From Trichococcus alkaliphilus (GTDB lineage Bacteria > Bacillota > Bacilli > Lactobacillales > Aerococcaceae): a stretch of DNA of 64,000 nucleotides. Positions 27,175-33,231 of this stretch are shown here, piece by piece. The translations under genes were made by a program, and so were the position numbers. How positions within the stretch are numbered: position 1 is the first letter of the stretch; each line of letters opens with the position of its first letter. A model generated the notes under the pieces. That model was not told the DNA's origin and did not search any database. It saw only the letters and a list, made by a program, of their open reading frames with translations. The stretch is taken from the NCBI RefSeq assembly GCF_003008695.1, contig NZ_PXZT01000002.1, positions 248,001 to 312,000 of the forward strand, in the 5' to 3' direction.

Positions 27175-28842
27175 TTAGCTTTTTCTCTTCAGCATTTTGA
27201 GGTAATTTTGATAATTTTTATTGCCGCCCGAAAGGTTGTAGACTTCCTGGAAGCCTAAATTGATCAAGACATTCTGTCCTGCATTTCCGGTGACCCCTTT
27301 GTTGCAATAGGTAACTGTCGGGATATCTTTCGAAAGCTCACCGGCACGGGTCCGCAGTTCCCCTAACGGGATGTGGATCGCGTCTTGGACGTGGCCCTTC
27401 TCGAAGTCCTTGGCGGAACGCGTATCGACCACCTGGATCGATTCGCCTTTTTGCTGCGTTTCGACCAACTGGGTCGGGGTCATCAAAGGATTTTTGTGCA
27501 AGGCGTTATCCAATGCCATGCCTGTATATAATATAGGATCTTTTGTCGTTGCGAACGGCGGTGCATAGGCCAGATCCAAGTGAAATAGATCTTCAGCTTT
27601 TGCCTTGAAGGTGATGGCCGTGGCGAGGACATCGATTCGTTTGTCCACTCCTTGGAATCCCACGATTTGAGCGCCCAAGACTCGTCCAGTGGCTTTATCG
27701 GCCAATGCCTTGATGATCAGTTCTTTCCCGCCAAGGTATTCAGCGTGGTCAGGCTTGATATTAAAGATGATTTCCACAAAATAACCTGCTGCCTTCGCTT
27801 CTTTTTCGGTCAAACCTGTCTGGCCGACATGGAGATTGAACAAGCGGAAAATACTGGTACCCAATACCCCGCGGTGTTCCAGATTTCCACCTGTAATCAC
27901 ATCGCCGGCAATCCGTCCCATCTTGTTGGCCGTAGAGCCCAATGGACGGTAAATCGGTTTGCCTGTGATGACGGAGAAGCTTTCGGCCACATCACCGACT
28001 GCATAAACATCCGGAAGGTTCGTCTGCATTTTACTGTTAACGGCAATAGCACCTGTCGCTCCGATCGTGACGCCGATTTCCTTCGCCAATTGGGTATTCG
28101 GACTTACTCCGGCAGCGAGGATAACAATATCCGTTTCGATGGTGGCGCCTTTTGTAGTCACCACTTTTTTGATGGCTCCATCCCCTTCGATGGTTTTGAC
28201 CGTATCCCCCAGGTGCAAATGCACCCCATTGGCCATCAGCACTTCTTCCACCCGGAAAGCCATATCTGCATCCATCGGCGGCATCACTTGATTTTCCAAC
28301 TGAACGATGGTGACATCCCAGCCTTTATGCACAAGCTGTTCAGCCATTTCCAGACCGATAAACCCGGCACCGATGAGGAGCGCTTTTTTCGGCTGGTTCG
28401 CTTCTGAATAACTTTCTATGTCACGAAGGTCCTGGATGTTGCGGACATGAAAGACATTCTTATATTCTGCCTGATCGAACGGTGGAGGCGTAATCGAAAC
28501 CGCACCTGTCGCGAAAACCAAAACATCATAAGGGTCCTCTTTGATTTCACCGGTCTTTAGATCCTTTACTTGAAGCTTCTTGGCTTCATGATTCACCTTT
28601 GTCACTTTGTGTTCAGTATAGATGGAGACATCATATCTCTTTTTGAACCATTTTGCATCCCGCGGCGTCAGGCGATCCACTGAATCGACTTCCCCACCGA
28701 TTTTATAAGGGATACCGCAGCCAGAATAGGAGATATCCTTCCCTTGGTCATAGATGACGATTTCTGCTTCCTCTGAGTTTCTGCGCGCTTTGGCTGCAAC
28801 AGAGGTGCCCGCTGCTACCGAACCGATTACGATGATTTTCAT
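27175..28842 (-). CDS. CoA-disulfide reductase/NADH oxidase-like flavoprotein fused to rhodanese
   Basis: 555 residues. FAD-binding start IVIGSVAAGTSVAAKARR, single redox cysteine in SGCGIPY (about residue 43), NAD-binding GAGFIGLEMAE, and second FAD motif VYAVGDVAE. Residues about 460-550 are a rhodanese domain with active-site cysteine in TYCNKGVTG. Such CoADR-Rhd proteins reduce CoA disulfide, CoA persulfide or polysulfide with NAD(P)H. It is the last gene of arsR1-acr3 (29 bases after acr3), so it may supply reduced thiol for arsenite handling or relieve thiol stress. Confidence 0.9.
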   Translation of the reverse strand: MKIIVIGSVAAGTSVAAKARRNSEEAEIVIYDQGKDISYSGCGIPYKIGGEVDSVDRLTPRDAKWFKKRYDVSIYTEHKVTKVNHEAKKLQVKDLKTGEIKEDPYDVLVFATGAVSITPPPFDQAEYKNVFHVRNIQDLRDIESYSEANQPKKALLIGAGFIGLEMAEQLVHKGWDVTIVQLENQVMPPMDADMAFRVEEVLMANGVHLHLGDTVKTIEGDGAIKKVVTTKGATIETDIVILAAGVSPNTQLAKEIGVTIGATGAIAVNSKMQTNLPDVYAVGDVAESFSVITGKPIYRPLGSTANKMGRIAGDVITGGNLEHRGVLGTSIFRLFNLHVGQTGLTEKEAKAAGYFVEIIFNIKPDHAEYLGGKELIIKALADKATGRVLGAQIVGFQGVDKRIDVLATAITFKAKAEDLFHLDLAYAPPFATTKDPILYTGMALDNALHKNPLMTPTQLVETQQKGESIQVVDTRSAKDFEKGHVQDAIHIPLGELRTRAGELSKDIPTVTYCNKGVTGNAGQNVLINLGFQEVYNLSGGNKNYQNYLKMLKRKS

Positions 28843-28871: not shown

Positions 28872-29957
28872 TTATTTTACCATTTTTACAGGATTCACTA
28901 CACTATTGTCTTTTCCGGGAAACCAGTGTCTCGTCGAATTGGCGATCTTCACCAAAATCAACATCACCGGCACTTCCGTCAGGACGCCTACCACCGTAGC
29001 CAATGCTGCTGGAGAATCCATTCCGAACAACGCGATGGCAACCGCGACAGATAATTCAAAAAAGTTCGATGCGCCGATCATTCCGGCTGGTGCGGAGATT
29101 GCATGCGGAAGCTTCAGCGCTTTGCTTGCAAAATAGGCAATGAAGAAAATCAGGAATGTCTGCAGGATCAAAGGTACGGCGATCATCAAAATGTGCAGCG
29201 GATTCTCCAGAATGACCTCTCCTTGGAAAGAGAACAACAAGATCAGCATCAACAACAGCCCCGCGGTAGTCGCGCCATCAAATTTCGAAAGAAAATCCTT
29301 CTCGAAATAAGTGACTCCTTTTTTCTTTGTGACGAAGATCCGCGTCAAAACGCCACCCACCAACGGAATCACCACGAACAACACGACGGACAGGATCAAG
29401 GTGTCCCAAGGAACCGTAACATTGCTGACGCCCAATAAAAATTTGACGATGGGAATGAACGCAACCAAGATGATCAGATCATTGGTCGCAACCTGAACGA
29501 CAGTGTACGCCGGATTGCCTTTTGTCAATTGGCTCCAGACAAAAACCATCGCTGTACAAGGTGCAGCTCCCAAGAGAATAGCACCGGCCAAATATTCCGT
29601 CGCCAACTCCTGCGTAATGAAATTCTTGAAGACGACAAAGAAGAAGAAAGCGGAAATCGCGTACATGGTAAAAGGTTTGATCAGCCAGTTCACTGCCCAG
29701 GTGACATAAAGTCCTTTCGGATTTTTCCTGACGTCCCGGACGCTTTGGAAATCCACCTTCATCATCATCGGGTAGATCATGACCCAGATCAATACAGCCG
29801 TCGGGATCGAGACGTTCGCATATTCGAATTTCCCAAAGAAATCAGGTATGGCCGGCAAATATTTACCGATCAAAACCCCCACCACCATACAGATTGCTAC
29901 CCAGACACTCAGGTATTTATTGAAGAACGAGATGCTTGTTTGCTCTTTTCCACTCAT
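28872..29957 (-). CDS. acr3: Arsenite efflux permease, ACR3 family
   Basis: 361 residues with ten predicted helices. Family marks are VLIWVMIYPMMMKVDF in helix 2 and the conserved cysteine in LGAAPCTAMVFVWSQLTKG (helix 4), essential for As(III) export in characterised members, plus APAGMIGASNFFELSVAVAI. It extrudes arsenite (often antimonite) using the proton gradient, without the ArsA ATPase. It lies 53 bases after arsR1 and 29 bases before the reductase, clearly one operon. Confidence 0.95.
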   Translation of the reverse strand: MSGKEQTSISFFNKYLSVWVAICMVVGVLIGKYLPAIPDFFGKFEYANVSIPTAVLIWVMIYPMMMKVDFQSVRDVRKNPKGLYVTWAVNWLIKPFTMYAISAFFFFVVFKNFITQELATEYLAGAILLGAAPCTAMVFVWSQLTKGNPAYTVVQVATNDLIILVAFIPIVKFLLGVSNVTVPWDTLILSVVLFVVIPLVGGVLTRIFVTKKKGVTYFEKDFLSKFDGATTAGLLLMLILLFSFQGEVILENPLHILMIAVPLILQTFLIFFIAYFASKALKLPHAISAPAGMIGASNFFELSVAVAIALFGMDSPAALATVVGVLTEVPVMLILVKIANSTRHWFPGKDNSVVNPVKMVK

Positions 29958-30010: not shown

Positions 30011-30355
30011 TCATTTGACCTTTTCTTTTCCTTCCGTTCCGCACACAACTTTTGACCGTACCGGTTCGCAGATGCATGCCGGTGTATTGGCCATCAATTC
30101 CGCTGTATCCACCTTGAATTTTTCGAAGGCATCTTTATTCAGGTCGTAATAATGCCACGTGCCGGATTTTTCCGTCGTCACCAGTCCTGCCTTCACCAAC
30201 AGATTAATGTGATGGGATAAAGTTGGCTGGGTAAAATCGAAATGTTCCAGTATGTCGCAAGCACACATGGCCCCGCAGGAAAGCATATCGACAATTTTGA
30301 CGCGCTTAGGGTCGGCCAAAGCCTTTGCGATTTTTGCATAATTTTCATAATCCAT
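30011..30355 (-). CDS. arsR: ArsR-family metalloid-responsive repressor (first copy)
   Basis: 114 residues with winged helix TQPTLSHHINLLVKAGLV. Cysteines in SCGAMCACDILEHF sit at the alpha-3 arsenic site, and another set CICEPVRSKVVC is at the C-terminus, giving several possible As(III)/Sb(III) ligands. It heads the arsR-acr3-reductase operon and should bind the ATAGA-N6-TCTAT operator just upstream of its own start. Confidence 0.93.
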   Translation of the reverse strand: MDYENYAKIAKALADPKRVKIVDMLSCGAMCACDILEHFDFTQPTLSHHINLLVKAGLVTTEKSGTWHYYDLNKDAFEKFKVDTAELMANTPACICEPVRSKVVCGTEGKEKVK

Positions 30356-30377
30356 GATTGCTGATGCCCCTTTTTAT

Positions 30378-30393
30378 ATAGACGTTTTTCTAT
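30378..30393 (-). promoter_or_regulatory. ArsR operator of the arsR1-acr3 operon
   Basis: Core ATAGACGTTTTTCTAT: ATAGA, six bases, TCTAT. The same core recurs at 32526 and 33301. It overlaps the TATATA -10 region on the minus strand, so bound repressor excludes polymerase. Confidence 0.72.
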
Positions 30394-30400
30394 CTATGCC

Positions 30401-30447
30401 AGAAAAAGAAACTCGAGCCGGAGTATCCCGAGACACGAGTCTTTTTT
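30401..30447. terminator. Terminator of the arsD-like gene
   Basis: Stem AGA-ACTCG / CGAGT-CTTTTTT with T/A runs on both exits; it separates the arsD-like gene from the arsR1 promoter. Confidence 0.65.
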
Positions 30448-30454
30448 ATGGGTG

Positions 30455-31042
30455 CTAGCAACAGCCGCCCTGCCCACAACCGCATGAGCCCTTACCTGCT
30501 GTAGCAGCTTCCTCATGCTTGTGGTGATGGTGTCCATGACCGCCGCAACAAGATTCTTTTGCTTGAGTTGTTTCTTCCTGATGATGATGGCCCTGGCCAC
30601 CGCAGCCACAGCCGCCTTTTTCGCCATTGCCGCCGCAGCAGCCGGATTCTTCTTTTTCTTCTTTTTCTACTTTATTTTCTTCGGAAAATTCCTCCGAACC
30701 GCCACAACCACAGCCGCCGCAGCCACAAGAGCCTTCGGTGTCTTCTATGAAGCGGACGCCGATGTAGCTTGTGATTTCATCGTTGGTCGGATAGCTTCCA
30801 CTTTTGACGATTTCTCCGTCCACAATAGTGATTGGCAACACGCTATTCCCTTCCGCCTCGATTTTTTCATTAACGGCCTTGTTGAGCGTGAATTGATCCG
30901 CATCATCGGTCAAATTAAAAAGCAATGCCTCGTAGTTCTCCAAATCCGCCAAGGCCTCCATTACTGCTGCAATGCGCAGGGCATCCTGGCTGCTGAACAA
31001 GCTGCTGCTTGTTTCCGGTTCAAAAATAGTGATGTTCGTCAT
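30455..31042 (-). CDS. ArsD-like protein without the arsenic-site cysteines, with Cys/His-rich tail
   Basis: 195 residues against about 120 for usual ArsD. Residues 1-100 follow the ArsD thioredoxin-like fold (ITIFEPET at the start, LPITIVDGEIVKSGSYPTNDEI near 70-90). The canonical metal site FDPAMCCSTGVCG is replaced by FEPETSSSLFSSQ: all three cysteines align with serine, and the domain has no cysteine. Residues 104-195 form a low-complexity tail with 14 Cys (mostly CGC and CC) and 9 His (HHH, HHHH), separated by Glu/Lys stretches. ArsD passes As(III) to ArsA; no arsA is in the window. A buffer or new-type metallochaperone is possible. Own promoter at 31115-31143. Confidence 0.85.
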   Translation of the reverse strand: MTNITIFEPETSSSLFSSQDALRIAAVMEALADLENYEALLFNLTDDADQFTLNKAVNEKIEAEGNSVLPITIVDGEIVKSGSYPTNDEITSYIGVRFIEDTEGSCGCGGCGCGGSEEFSEENKVEKEEKEESGCCGGNGEKGGCGCGGQGHHHQEETTQAKESCCGGHGHHHHKHEEAATAGKGSCGCGQGGCC

Positions 31043-31114: not shown

Positions 31115-31143
31115 AATATAGGACTTCTTCGATCTACAGTCAA
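31115..31143 (-). promoter_or_regulatory. Promoter of the arsD-like gene
   Basis: Minus strand: -35 TTGACT, 17-bp spacer, -10 TATATT. Two direct repeats AAGCTATCAAAA / AAGCTATTCAAAA lie downstream in the leader; the ATAGA-N6-TCTAT core of the other ars promoters is absent here. Confidence 0.7.
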
Positions 31144-31166: not shown

Positions 31167-31208
31167 GAAAGTGCCGGACAGAGAATAATTCCCCACCCGG
31201 CACTTTCG
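31167..31208 (-). terminator. Terminator of the permease-trx1 operon
   Basis: Stem AAAGTGCCGG / CCGGCACTTT with loop of about 20 bases; T-rich exit on minus. Confidence 0.65.
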
Positions 31209-31215
31209 AAAATTT

Positions 31216-31449
31216 TTATTTTTTCAACAATTCTGTGATTTCTTCCGTACTGGCGACTTTACCGTAGGAAACGACTTTCTCATCGATGACCAATCCCGGA
31301 GTGCGCATGATGCCGTATTTGGCTATGTCCTTCATGTCGGTCACTTTTGTGATGGTCGCTTCCATTCCCAGTTCCTTCAATGCCTCTTCCGTATTCTTAG
31401 CCAAATTCACACAATTTTTGCAGCCTATACCCAAAATTTTGATTTCCAT
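31216..31449 (-). CDS. Small thioredoxin-fold protein (redox-active disulfide protein 2 type), trx1
   Basis: 77 residues, starting IKILGIGCKNC with a CxxC motif at the first helix and the cis-proline motif RTPGLVIDE. This is the TM0996/MTH895-like miniature thioredoxin group. It follows the permease gene by 30 bases in one operon. It is a paralogue of trx2 at 32683-32916. Its role may be thiol delivery or reduction for the permease substrate; not established. Confidence 0.86.
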   Translation of the reverse strand: MEIKILGIGCKNCVNLAKNTEEALKELGMEATITKVTDMKDIAKYGIMRTPGLVIDEKVVSYGKVASTEEITELLKK

Positions 31450-31479
31450 GATAATATTCCTCCTGCTTATTATTTTTGA

Positions 31480-32484
31480 TCACATAAATATTGGTCCCAA
31501 GAAATTGAACAGATAGCCGATGATGATGATGCCGACTGCCACGATTCCGAAGAAGAGGCCCAACAATTTCGGTTTAACGACCTGCTTCAGCATGACCATC
31601 GATGGCAAGGACAATGCTGTTACGCCCATCATGAAGGAAAGCACAGTTCCCAATCCGACACCCTTTGCGACAAGCGCTTCGGAAATGGGCAGTGTCCCAA
31701 AAATATCCGCGTACATTGGAATGCCGACGAACGTCGCCACCAATACCGAATACCATTTATCCTGGCCCAACAGAGCCGTGATGACCGATTCGGGGATCCA
31801 GTTGTGGATGGCAGCCCCGATGCCGACCCCAAGAAGTACGTACAGCCATACTTTCTGGACGACTTCCTTCACCTGATCGACCGCATAATCGACACGGTCT
31901 TTCCTTGTCAACTCGGCTTCCTCCAGTTCAATTGTAGGGCTGCCGAACACAAACGATTCGACCTGGTCCTCCAGATGCGCTTTCCCGATGAAGGTTCCGC
32001 CGACAACCGCAAGGATCAGTCCCACAACGACATAGGCGATGGCGATTTTCCAGTTGAAGATGCTGGCCAAGAGGATGATGGATGCCAGATCAACCAACGG
32101 CGAGGAGATCAGGAACGAAAACGTCACGCCCAACGGCAATCCTGATCCGGTGAAGCCGATGAAAAGCGGAATCGAAGAGCACGAACAGAACGGTGTGATC
32201 GTCCCAAGCAACGCCGCCAGGATATTGGCGGTAATTCCATCAAATCGGCCCAGGATTTTCTTCGTCCGCTCAGGCGGGAAGAAACTTTGCACATAAGAAA
32301 TACCGAAAATCAACACCGACAACAGGATGAAGATTTTGATGACGTCGTAGATGAAGAAATGGATGCTGCCCCCCACCCTGCTGGCGAGGTCCAATCCGAA
32401 GACATCCCGGACAAGCATGCCGACCAAATCGCTTAGCCACTGCATTTTTAATAACTGATCATTTAACCATTGAAAAATTCCCAT
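31480..32484 (-). CDS. ArsP/DUF318-like permease
   Basis: About 334 residues, eight or more helices. The signature TPFCSCSSIPLFIG with two cysteines and the second-half motif GIPMYADIFGTLPI define the permease family that includes ArsP, an exporter of trivalent organoarsenicals, and related metal-stress permeases. A soluble loop (about 175-215) carries charged residues. GTG 32496 overlaps its ribosome binding site, so ATG 32484 is preferred. It lies behind an ArsR-type operator and heads the permease-trx1 operon. Substrate (methylarsenite, antimony or another metal) cannot be read. Confidence 0.85.
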   Translation of the reverse strand: MGIFQWLNDQLLKMQWLSDLVGMLVRDVFGLDLASRVGGSIHFFIYDVIKIFILLSVLIFGISYVQSFFPPERTKKILGRFDGITANILAALLGTITPFCSCSSIPLFIGFTGSGLPLGVTFSFLISSPLVDLASIILLASIFNWKIAIAYVVVGLILAVVGGTFIGKAHLEDQVESFVFGSPTIELEEAELTRKDRVDYAVDQVKEVVQKVWLYVLLGVGIGAAIHNWIPESVITALLGQDKWYSVLVATFVGIPMYADIFGTLPISEALVAKGVGLGTVLSFMMGVTALSLPSMVMLKQVVKPKLLGLFFGIVAVGIIIIGYLFNFLGPIFM

Positions 32485-32520
32485 GATGAACTGCACCTTC
32501 TAGTTTGTATTTTTCCACCT

Positions 32521-32577
32521 ATCACATAGATGTTTATCTATGTGATAGTATACGCTCACACATAGATGAATGTCAAT
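32521..32577 (-). promoter_or_regulatory. Promoter and double ArsR operator of the permease operon
   Basis: Minus strand: -35 TTGACA (32571-32576), 18-bp spacer, -10 TATACT (32547-32552). Operator 1 is a perfect repeat ATCACATAGAT-GTTT-ATCTATGTGAT (32521-32546) just after the -10, with core ATAGA-N6-TCTAT. Operator 2, weaker (ATAGA-N6-TCAAT, 32562-32577), overlaps the -35. Confidence 0.8.
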
Positions 32578-32605
32578 GTGTGGTTTTCGGGTAGTGAAAG
32601 GCTTA

Positions 32606-32651
32606 AAAAAGCTGCAATCATGCCGGAGCAGCACCCCGGTTTTCGCAGCTT
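32606..32651 (-). terminator. Terminator of arsR2-trx2
   Basis: Stem AAGCTGC / GCAGCTT with inner CCGG/CCGG and a T-run on the minus-strand exit. Confidence 0.72.
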
Positions 32652-32682
32652 GTTCATTCAAGGATAGGCTTTACTCTTTTTA

Positions 32683-32916
32683 TCACTTTTGCAGCAGTTC
32701 TGCAATGTGTTTGGGCGTCAGAATCCGCCCATATGAGACGACCTTTTCGTTGATGACCAGCCCCGGAGTCTGCATGATGCCGTACTTTGCGATTTCTTTC
32801 GGGTCTTCCACTTTGATGATTGTTGCATCCATGCCGATCTTCTTGAGCGCCTCGGCTGTATTTGCTTGCAATTTCTCGCAGTTCCGGCAGCCCGGTCCCA
32901 AAATTTTGATTTCCAT
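32683..32916 (-). CDS. Small thioredoxin-fold protein, trx2
   Basis: 77 residues from ATG 32916 (AGGGG six bases upstream; the ATG at 32922 is too close). CxxC in LGPGCRNCEKL and cis-proline motif QTPGLVINEKVVSYGR. It matches trx1 in length and in most positions, so the two arose by duplication. Co-transcribed with arsR2. Confidence 0.86.
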   Translation of the reverse strand: MEIKILGPGCRNCEKLQANTAEALKKIGMDATIIKVEDPKEIAKYGIMQTPGLVINEKVVSYGRILTPKHIAELLQK

Positions 32917-32940
32917 TTCCATCCCCTGCTTTCGAATGAA

Positions 32941-33231
32941 TTATACAGTGGTGTTTTGTTTGGCCATAGTCTGGAAAAAGTCCTTCAACTCATCCAACTT
33001 TTCGTGATTCACGGAGTATTTGACCCAAATGCCGTCTTTTCTACTGTCCACAAGGCCGCAGTCCTTCATCATCTTCATGTGGTAGGACAAAGTCGGTTGT
33101 GTGATCGAAAACTGATCCAACAGCGCACAGGCGCACATTTCGCCTTCCGACAATAAATCCATGATTTCCAATCTGGTTTCGTCCGACAACACTTTCAGAC
33201 ATTTTGCATAGGTTTTGTATTCGATCGCCAT
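32941..33231 (-). CDS. ArsR-family metalloid-responsive repressor (second copy)
   Basis: 96 residues, winged helix TQPTLSYHMKMMKDCGLV and metal site EGEMCACALLDQF (CxC at alpha-3). It lacks the C-terminal cysteine cluster of the first copy. The gene starts after GAGGAA and heads the arsR2-trx2 unit. The shared operator core implies cross-talk between the two repressors. Confidence 0.92.
   Translation of the reverse strand: MAIEYKTYAKCLKVLSDETRLEIMDLLSEGEMCACALLDQFSITQPTLSYHMKMMKDCGLVDSRKDGIWVKYSVNHEKLDELKDFFQTMAKQNTTV

Follow-up and report, generated by a model that had tools for sequence, protein, structure and literature searches.

A Trichococcus ArsD clade without Cys12-Cys13 carries a rewritten arsenic loop and a cysteine- and histidine-rich tail in genomes where no ArsA was found

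Trichococcus possesses a conserved clade of ArsD proteins without Cys12-Cys13, here termed Ser forms, and the genomes that encode them have no ArsA over the family cut-off. ArsD delivers As(III) to ArsA via three cysteines. A 2025 review describes Cys12-Cys13 as the sole pair conserved in all ArsD homologs (PMC12607644). Sequence comparison of the Ser forms suggests an old carrier turned arsenic-induced sponge or sensor. Our preferred reading, to which we give not quite an even chance, is an ArsD freed from ArsA that persists as a Cys/His buffer induced by arsenite and would exchange As(III) with Acr3 export.

Results

The window, a stretch of 64,000 nucleotides of Trichococcus alkaliphilus DNA, contains an ars locus whose genes read in minus-strand order ArsR1, Trx1, ArsP_1, Trx2, ArsD-Ser, ArsR2, Acr3 and a CoA-disulfide-reductase-like protein with rhodanese domain (Table 1). 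The ArsP_1 gene is flanked on each side by one for a small ArsE-family thioredoxin-like protein (window 31216-32922), an arrangement kept in L033-L041.

Table 1. Features of the ars locus, in window coordinates
Feature	Position	Strand	Basis
ArsR1, ArsR/SmtB metalloregulator	32941..33231	-	Pfam + NCBIfam
Trx1, MTH895/ArsE-family thioredoxin-like	32683..32922	-	Pfam + NCBIfam
ArsP_1 permease	31480..32496	-	Pfam
Trx2, MTH895/ArsE-family thioredoxin-like	31216..31449	-	Pfam + NCBIfam
Terminator-like hairpin between Trx2 and arsD-Ser	31167..31207	-	strong, z -6.06
Promoter-like TTGACT-17-TATATT 5' of arsD-Ser	31115..31143	-	conserved in aligned loci
Putative ArsR-type box between the promoter hexamers	31116..31137	-	alignment, pattern search
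ArsD-Ser, 195 aa: Cys-free ArsD domain, then Cys/His tail	30455..31042	-	ORF list, Pfam
Rewritten, shortened As(III) loop (P-ETSSSLFSSQ-D), codons 9-20	30983..31018	-	alignment
ArsD-Ser tail, residues 106-195, 14 Cys + 9 His	30458..30727	-	residue counts
Weaker terminator-like hairpin 3' of arsD-Ser	30403..30448	-	z -2.17; 4/200 shuffles fold as well
Same putative ArsR-type box 5' of arsR2-acr3	30376..30397	-	alignment, pattern search
ArsR2, ArsR/SmtB metalloregulator	30011..30355	-	Pfam + NCBIfam
Acr3 arsenite efflux pump	28872..29957	-	378.3 bits, cut-off 282.8
CoA-disulfide-reductase-like flavoprotein with rhodanese domain	27175..28842	-	Pfam + NCBIfam

The original prediction had placed the protein in the ArsD family, and this was borne out: residues 1-114 match Pfam ArsD (PF06953) at profile positions 1-117 of 123, with 66.5 bits against a cut-off of 27. 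The sole other Pfam hit at E ≤0.1 was Thioredoxin_3, at a sub-threshold 14.8 bits. Five PDB sequences matched at E ≤1, the three with E <0.01 being the ArsD entries 3ktb, 3kgk and 3mwh. The protein misses, however, the cut-off of the ArsD metallochaperone equivalog NF033727 (54.9 bits versus 90). Our counts also agree with the predicted Cys-free domain and 90-residue tail: residues 1-105 hold neither Cys nor His, and the tail has the composition given in Table 1. Given that Cys makes up 0.76% of the residues encoded by 13 neighbouring genes, a count of at least 14 Cys in 90 residues has P ∼1e-14, and the lack of Cys in 105 residues is unremarkable (P 0.45). We found no second place in the genome with the tail sequence and no metallothionein family match for the protein (Pfam and NCBIfam, E ≤0.1). 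AlphaFold models, each built from a 10-row alignment of the window and L033-L041 proteins, were poor, with a mean pLDDT of 40.7 for the window protein and 42.1 for that of T. paludicola.

The tail is also rich in His, a composition more apt for Ni, Zn or Cu than for As(III), and this counts against an arsenite buffer. With its His and acidic residues it would suit a store or donor of these divalent metals largely unconnected with arsenic, as in SlyD, whose tail is also attached to a folded domain, contains many His, Cys, Asp and Glu residues and binds several Ni(II) (PMC7055735). The SlyD domain is an FKBP prolyl isomerase, unlike ArsD-Ser, in which no FKBP domain was detected (Pfam, E ≤0.1). 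Against such a role, ArsD-Ser is encoded in an ars locus with a box in common with arsR2-acr3, and the tail of one relative, L055, has 12 Cys and a single His. We regard a SlyD-type role as improbable.

The arsenic loop itself has been rewritten. Alignment of the nearest relative, FEPAMCCNTGVCGPSIDQDLLRI, with ArsD-Ser, FEPETSSSLFSSQDALRI, shows a five-residue deletion. The claim that all three arsenic cysteines had become serine thus holds in part: S12 and S13 lie opposite C12 and C13, but the third Cys maps to the gap or its edge, where no given Ser pairs with it. At codons 12 and 13 the two tailed Cys relatives read TGY and the Ser forms AGY. The predicted loss of the arsenic site stands, since the Cys12-Cys13-Cys18 site (CC..C) is missing from 11/11 Ser forms. 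Residues 7-20 are identical in all 11, though 8 of the 14 codons differ synonymously, and across the set no change is seen at 76 of the first 103 positions. Such tight constraint on the new loop may reflect a specific ligand or partner, which a simple sponge would not need; a plain sponge explains the invariance of the loop least, and this invariance argues for a loop partner.

The ratio dN/dS between the window gene and the 10 other Ser forms was 0.055-0.146, and all 55 pairs of Ser forms gave a mean dN of 0.060 and a mean dS of 0.711, values indicating that purifying selection prevails among them. These ratios and the invariant loop disfavour a decaying arsD relic left after arsA loss, as do the conserved promoter region and a frame that is open in 11/11 Ser forms, one of them cut by a contig end. 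Decay would account for the loss of both functional site and partner and for the larger number of changes on the Ser branch; we nevertheless consider it very improbable indeed.

We surveyed 13 Trichococcus genomes, including that of the window, and found an ArsD-domain match in 13/13. Eleven carry the Ser loop, and CC..C occurs in the other two, G006 (T. paludicola) and G009. ArsA over the TIGR04291 cut-off was found in exactly these two CC..C carriers and was absent from all 11 Ser genomes. The missing arsA, first noted for the window, therefore extends to its whole genome, which is rated 100% complete and has no true ArsA, the best TIGR04291 match reaching 23.1 bits where the cut-off demands 650. 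A 254-aa frame in this genome barely passes Pfam ArsA_ATPase (25.8 versus 24.3, 58 positions), a profile that finds matches in all 14 control genomes. Acr3 over cut-off was present in 10/13 genomes, all of them Ser; the Ser genome lacking it, G007, has a completeness of 51% and an arsD cut off by the end of its contig. No Acr3 was found in G006 (63% complete, so unsure) or G009 (rated 100%), and ArsB exceeded its cut-off in 0/13. Absence of ArsA correlates better with the Ser loop than Acr3 presence does, the association comprising few events rather than 13 independent cases since the Ser clade has one origin. Acr3 alone does not go with the Ser loop because a Herbinix locus (L042) joins Acr3 to a CC..C ArsD, its genes being ArsR, Acr3 (80.6% identical to that of the window), the ArsD, an ArsA-like ORF and a CoA-disulfide-reductase-like gene.

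These gene contents bear on a new type of chaperone, in which the tail would take As(III) and pass it directly to Acr3 or ArsP_1 with the Ser loop docking. Relative to ArsD-Ser, Acr3 is the second gene downstream and ArsP_1 the second upstream; Acr3 is present in 10/11 Ser genomes and the loop is invariant in 11/11. However, ArsP_1 is also present at the T. paludicola Cys-form locus and so leaves the loop change unexplained, and in Herbinix Acr3 adjoins a CC..C ArsD and an ArsA-like ORF, showing that Acr3 alone requires no Ser loop. Direct transfer is in our judgement rather unlikely.

In T. paludicola arsA is the next gene to the Cys-form arsD. In G009 the tailed Cys ArsD, L055, lies near a contig end away from arsA, and a second, tail-less Cys form (L056:9411-9749) lies just downstream of arsA. 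The G009 and T. paludicola loci L056 and L057 combine ArsA and a Cys-form ArsD with ArsP_1 nearby and without Acr3 or ArsB over cut-off, making both genomes candidates for an ArsA-ArsP pump. That ArsA can energize ArsP has been proposed from gene neighbourhoods and phylogeny (PMC2963123), and the two genomes would suit a test of it. Three further observations concern the genus. An aquaporin-like ORF (MIP, by eye) directly follows the CoA-disulfide-reductase gene of T. paludicola (L057:12160-12879). Six of the 13 genomes (G001, G002, G003, G005, G011, G012; L027-L032) encode a second, divergent ArsD-like protein of ∼109 residues with no CC..C and 33-34 bits to PF06953, the G005 copy (L153) not being beside ars genes. 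Finally, L035 (MUZD01000001.1), titled Sedimentibacter sp. SX930, has a Trichococcus-like ars locus and flanks and is probably mislabelled, its ArsP_1 and MetE-like proteins each being 97% identical to those of the window.

A profile of the Ser domain, searched in 398 Bacilli genomes including that of the window, matched 66 genomes at 72 places, all of which were read. Outside the window's own genome the Ser motif occurred in none of the 71 places, and 67 of them had CC-x4-C; in L138, L140 and L141 CC is kept and the third Cys is missing, and L090 lacks its N-terminus. The top score outside Trichococcus was 59.6 bits versus 223 for the window protein, and no long Cys/His tail was seen outside Trichococcus among the other Bacilli places read. 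L138, L140 and L141 (G240, G250) are paralogs in genomes that also hold a CC..C ArsD and ArsA; they share with ArsD-Ser an ArsD domain in which part of the site is missing and differ in keeping the Cys pair, in having no long tail and in the ArsA of their genomes. A full-protein scan of 84,980 species genomes, which reaches close relatives only, gave 10 loci, nine Trichococcus-type by synteny and the one from Herbinix. The 87 plasmid records matching at E ≤1e-5 were all <60% identical. No report of a Cys-less ArsD or of Trichococcus ars genes was met in literature titles and abstract openings, subscription papers being mostly outside this scope.

ArsA exceeded its cut-off in 56/73 ArsD-bearing genomes outside Trichococcus. 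Among the other 17, ArsA is split into two pieces in G074, ten genomes have ArsA matches of 286-302 bits, and the remaining six reach no more than 97 bits. Three of these six (G025, G041, G048) encode divergent ArsD-like proteins without CC..C, whose function may not be that of ArsD; the G058 protein contains stops and that of G084 lacks its N-terminus. In the sixth, G170, a shortened frame next to a remnant of ArsA retains CC..C, a case that breaks any strict rule and counts against the buffer reading. The divergent protein of G025 (L059:5324-5683), a genome from the same family as that of the window, ends in a short His/Cys tail; its neighbours show no ars genes by eye.

The original prediction had metal binding shifting from fold to tail and proposed checking whether Ser loop and tail always occur together. 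Comparison with the Cys forms does not support such a shift and gives a negative answer to the check. L041 and L055 each combine an intact CC..C loop with a tail of 12 Cys (6 and 1 His, respectively), and the L041 tail aligns so closely with that of the window that it is clearly the same tail. The tail therefore either predates the loss of the loop or is unconnected with it. Short Cys groups also end other ArsDs of the same family, for example L024, L004 and L026, and we infer that the tail is probably an enlargement of the ArsD C-terminal cysteines and no replacement for the loop. Ten complete Ser tails (L039, cut by a contig end, was excluded) contain 9-14 Cys and 5-18 His and extend 58-97 residues beyond GVRF; CC pairs number three in the window tail, none in L033 and 0-3 across the ten.

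In a protein tree the Ser clade had support of 100/100, with L041 as its sister (99/91) and L055 next (96/91); removing the loop columns and two long-branched rows left the branch order unchanged (100/99, 97/89 and 99/93). The Ser form thus has one derived origin, nested inside the tailed Cys forms. With L055 as outgroup, we counted 19-22 residues unique to Ser forms versus 3-5 unique to L041, or 11-14 versus 1-3 without the loop. The flanks of L041, compared with the window in 150-base steps, were 0.84-0.96 identical, whereas arsD was 0.71-0.81 identical, and from window position ∼30600 to 28800 identity dropped to 0.37-0.57, recovering within the CoA-disulfide-reductase gene by 28350. Between L041 and the 11 Ser forms arsD dS was 1.1-1.8. 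In a tree with 9 Ser rows, the L041 ArsP_1 falls among them and groups with the window copy, at just 85/87, and a tree of the downstream flank left the branching unresolved. The T. paludicola locus, whose flanks are near those of the window while its arsD and following stretch diverge, makes it unlikely that ArsA was simply lost in situ, and the same pattern suggests that one cassette was exchanged for another.

In an alignment of nine Ser loci with L041, ten in all, TTGACT and TATATT occur upstream of arsD with the box RTAGATNGAAR...CTATAT between them. A strict pattern finds the arsD box in 10/11 Ser forms, L036 deviating near its start; among Cys forms the box of L041 is exact, and those of L055 and of the G009 arsA promoter are close. 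A similar box is seen ahead of arsR2-acr3 in an alignment of eight loci; L033, L037 and L040 deviate. In the genome of the window, 8 places match the box at ≤3 mismatches (3 for a reversed control) and only two at ≤2, both at the ars locus. A scan for promoters and terminators gave no more sites than shuffles did (9 versus 9.5 and 7 versus 7.2), and it missed both terminator-like hairpins at arsD-Ser, which are based on aligned loci and shuffle folding. From these elements we infer that arsD-Ser is probably a separate, ArsR-controlled transcript.

The common box is also consistent with the main rival reading, in which ArsD-Ser is an As(III)-responsive co-regulator that has lost the chaperone half and kept and enlarged repression through C-terminal Cys pairs, tuning the arsD and arsR2-acr3 boxes. 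In a published account of R773 ArsD, C-terminal Cys pairs are tied to regulation and C12/C13/C18 to chaperoning (PMC4562236), and it is only the latter set that the Ser form has lost. That account also reports that a Bacillus ArsD without the C-terminal pairs did not bind its promoter (PMC4562236), a test that says nothing for ArsD-Ser. Set against co-regulation are the absence of a fixed pair in the Ser tails and the lack of any DNA-binding domain besides ArsD, the only domain found in the protein (Pfam). We hold it to be unlikely, although it deserves the most attention among the alternatives.

Discussion

ArsD-Ser shares with E. coli R773 ArsD (PF06953; NF033727) the same domain at residues 1-114, an ars locus and Cys near the C-terminus. 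It differs in having no CC..C, a loop shorter by five residues, a score below the equivalog cut-off, no ArsA, a 90-residue Cys/His tail and an apparently separate transcription unit. The Cys forms L041 and L055 are its nearest kin in the gene tree, with a Cys-rich tail and a similar promoter box, and L041 occupies the same chromosomal place as the window gene; unlike ArsD-Ser, both have CC..C intact and ArsA in the genome, with no Acr3 found.

Were ArsD-Ser an arsenite-induced buffer, arsenite would release ArsR2 from both boxes and ArsD-Ser would be made alongside Acr3. The tail, probably disordered, would bind As(III) or Sb(III) exchangeably, and thiophilic metals perhaps as well, and this pool would limit free arsenite until export by Acr3. 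The Cys-free fold with its invariant Ser loop may then serve as a scaffold or docking surface, not as a binding site. The same tail is, however, also present on Cys forms in genomes with ArsA, and its role may be older and unrelated to loop loss.

A wider proposal, which we put forward as doubtful, is that across the genus a chaperone dependent on ArsA became an ArsA-independent component of Acr3-based resistance. A fixed Ser motif would have taken the place of the chaperone loop and gained a new binding partner, the enlarged tail would be the only metalloid site and the protein would act as an arsenite-induced buffer or sensor, with Cys-ArsD plus ArsA and Ser-ArsD plus Acr3 cassettes apparently swapping between species at one chromosomal place.

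The clade offers a natural variant that separates the chaperone and repressor activities of ArsD, which are assigned to different cysteines, with close sisters that keep both sets. It also provides, at one locus in related species, a paired comparison of the ArsA-type and Acr3-type arrangements.
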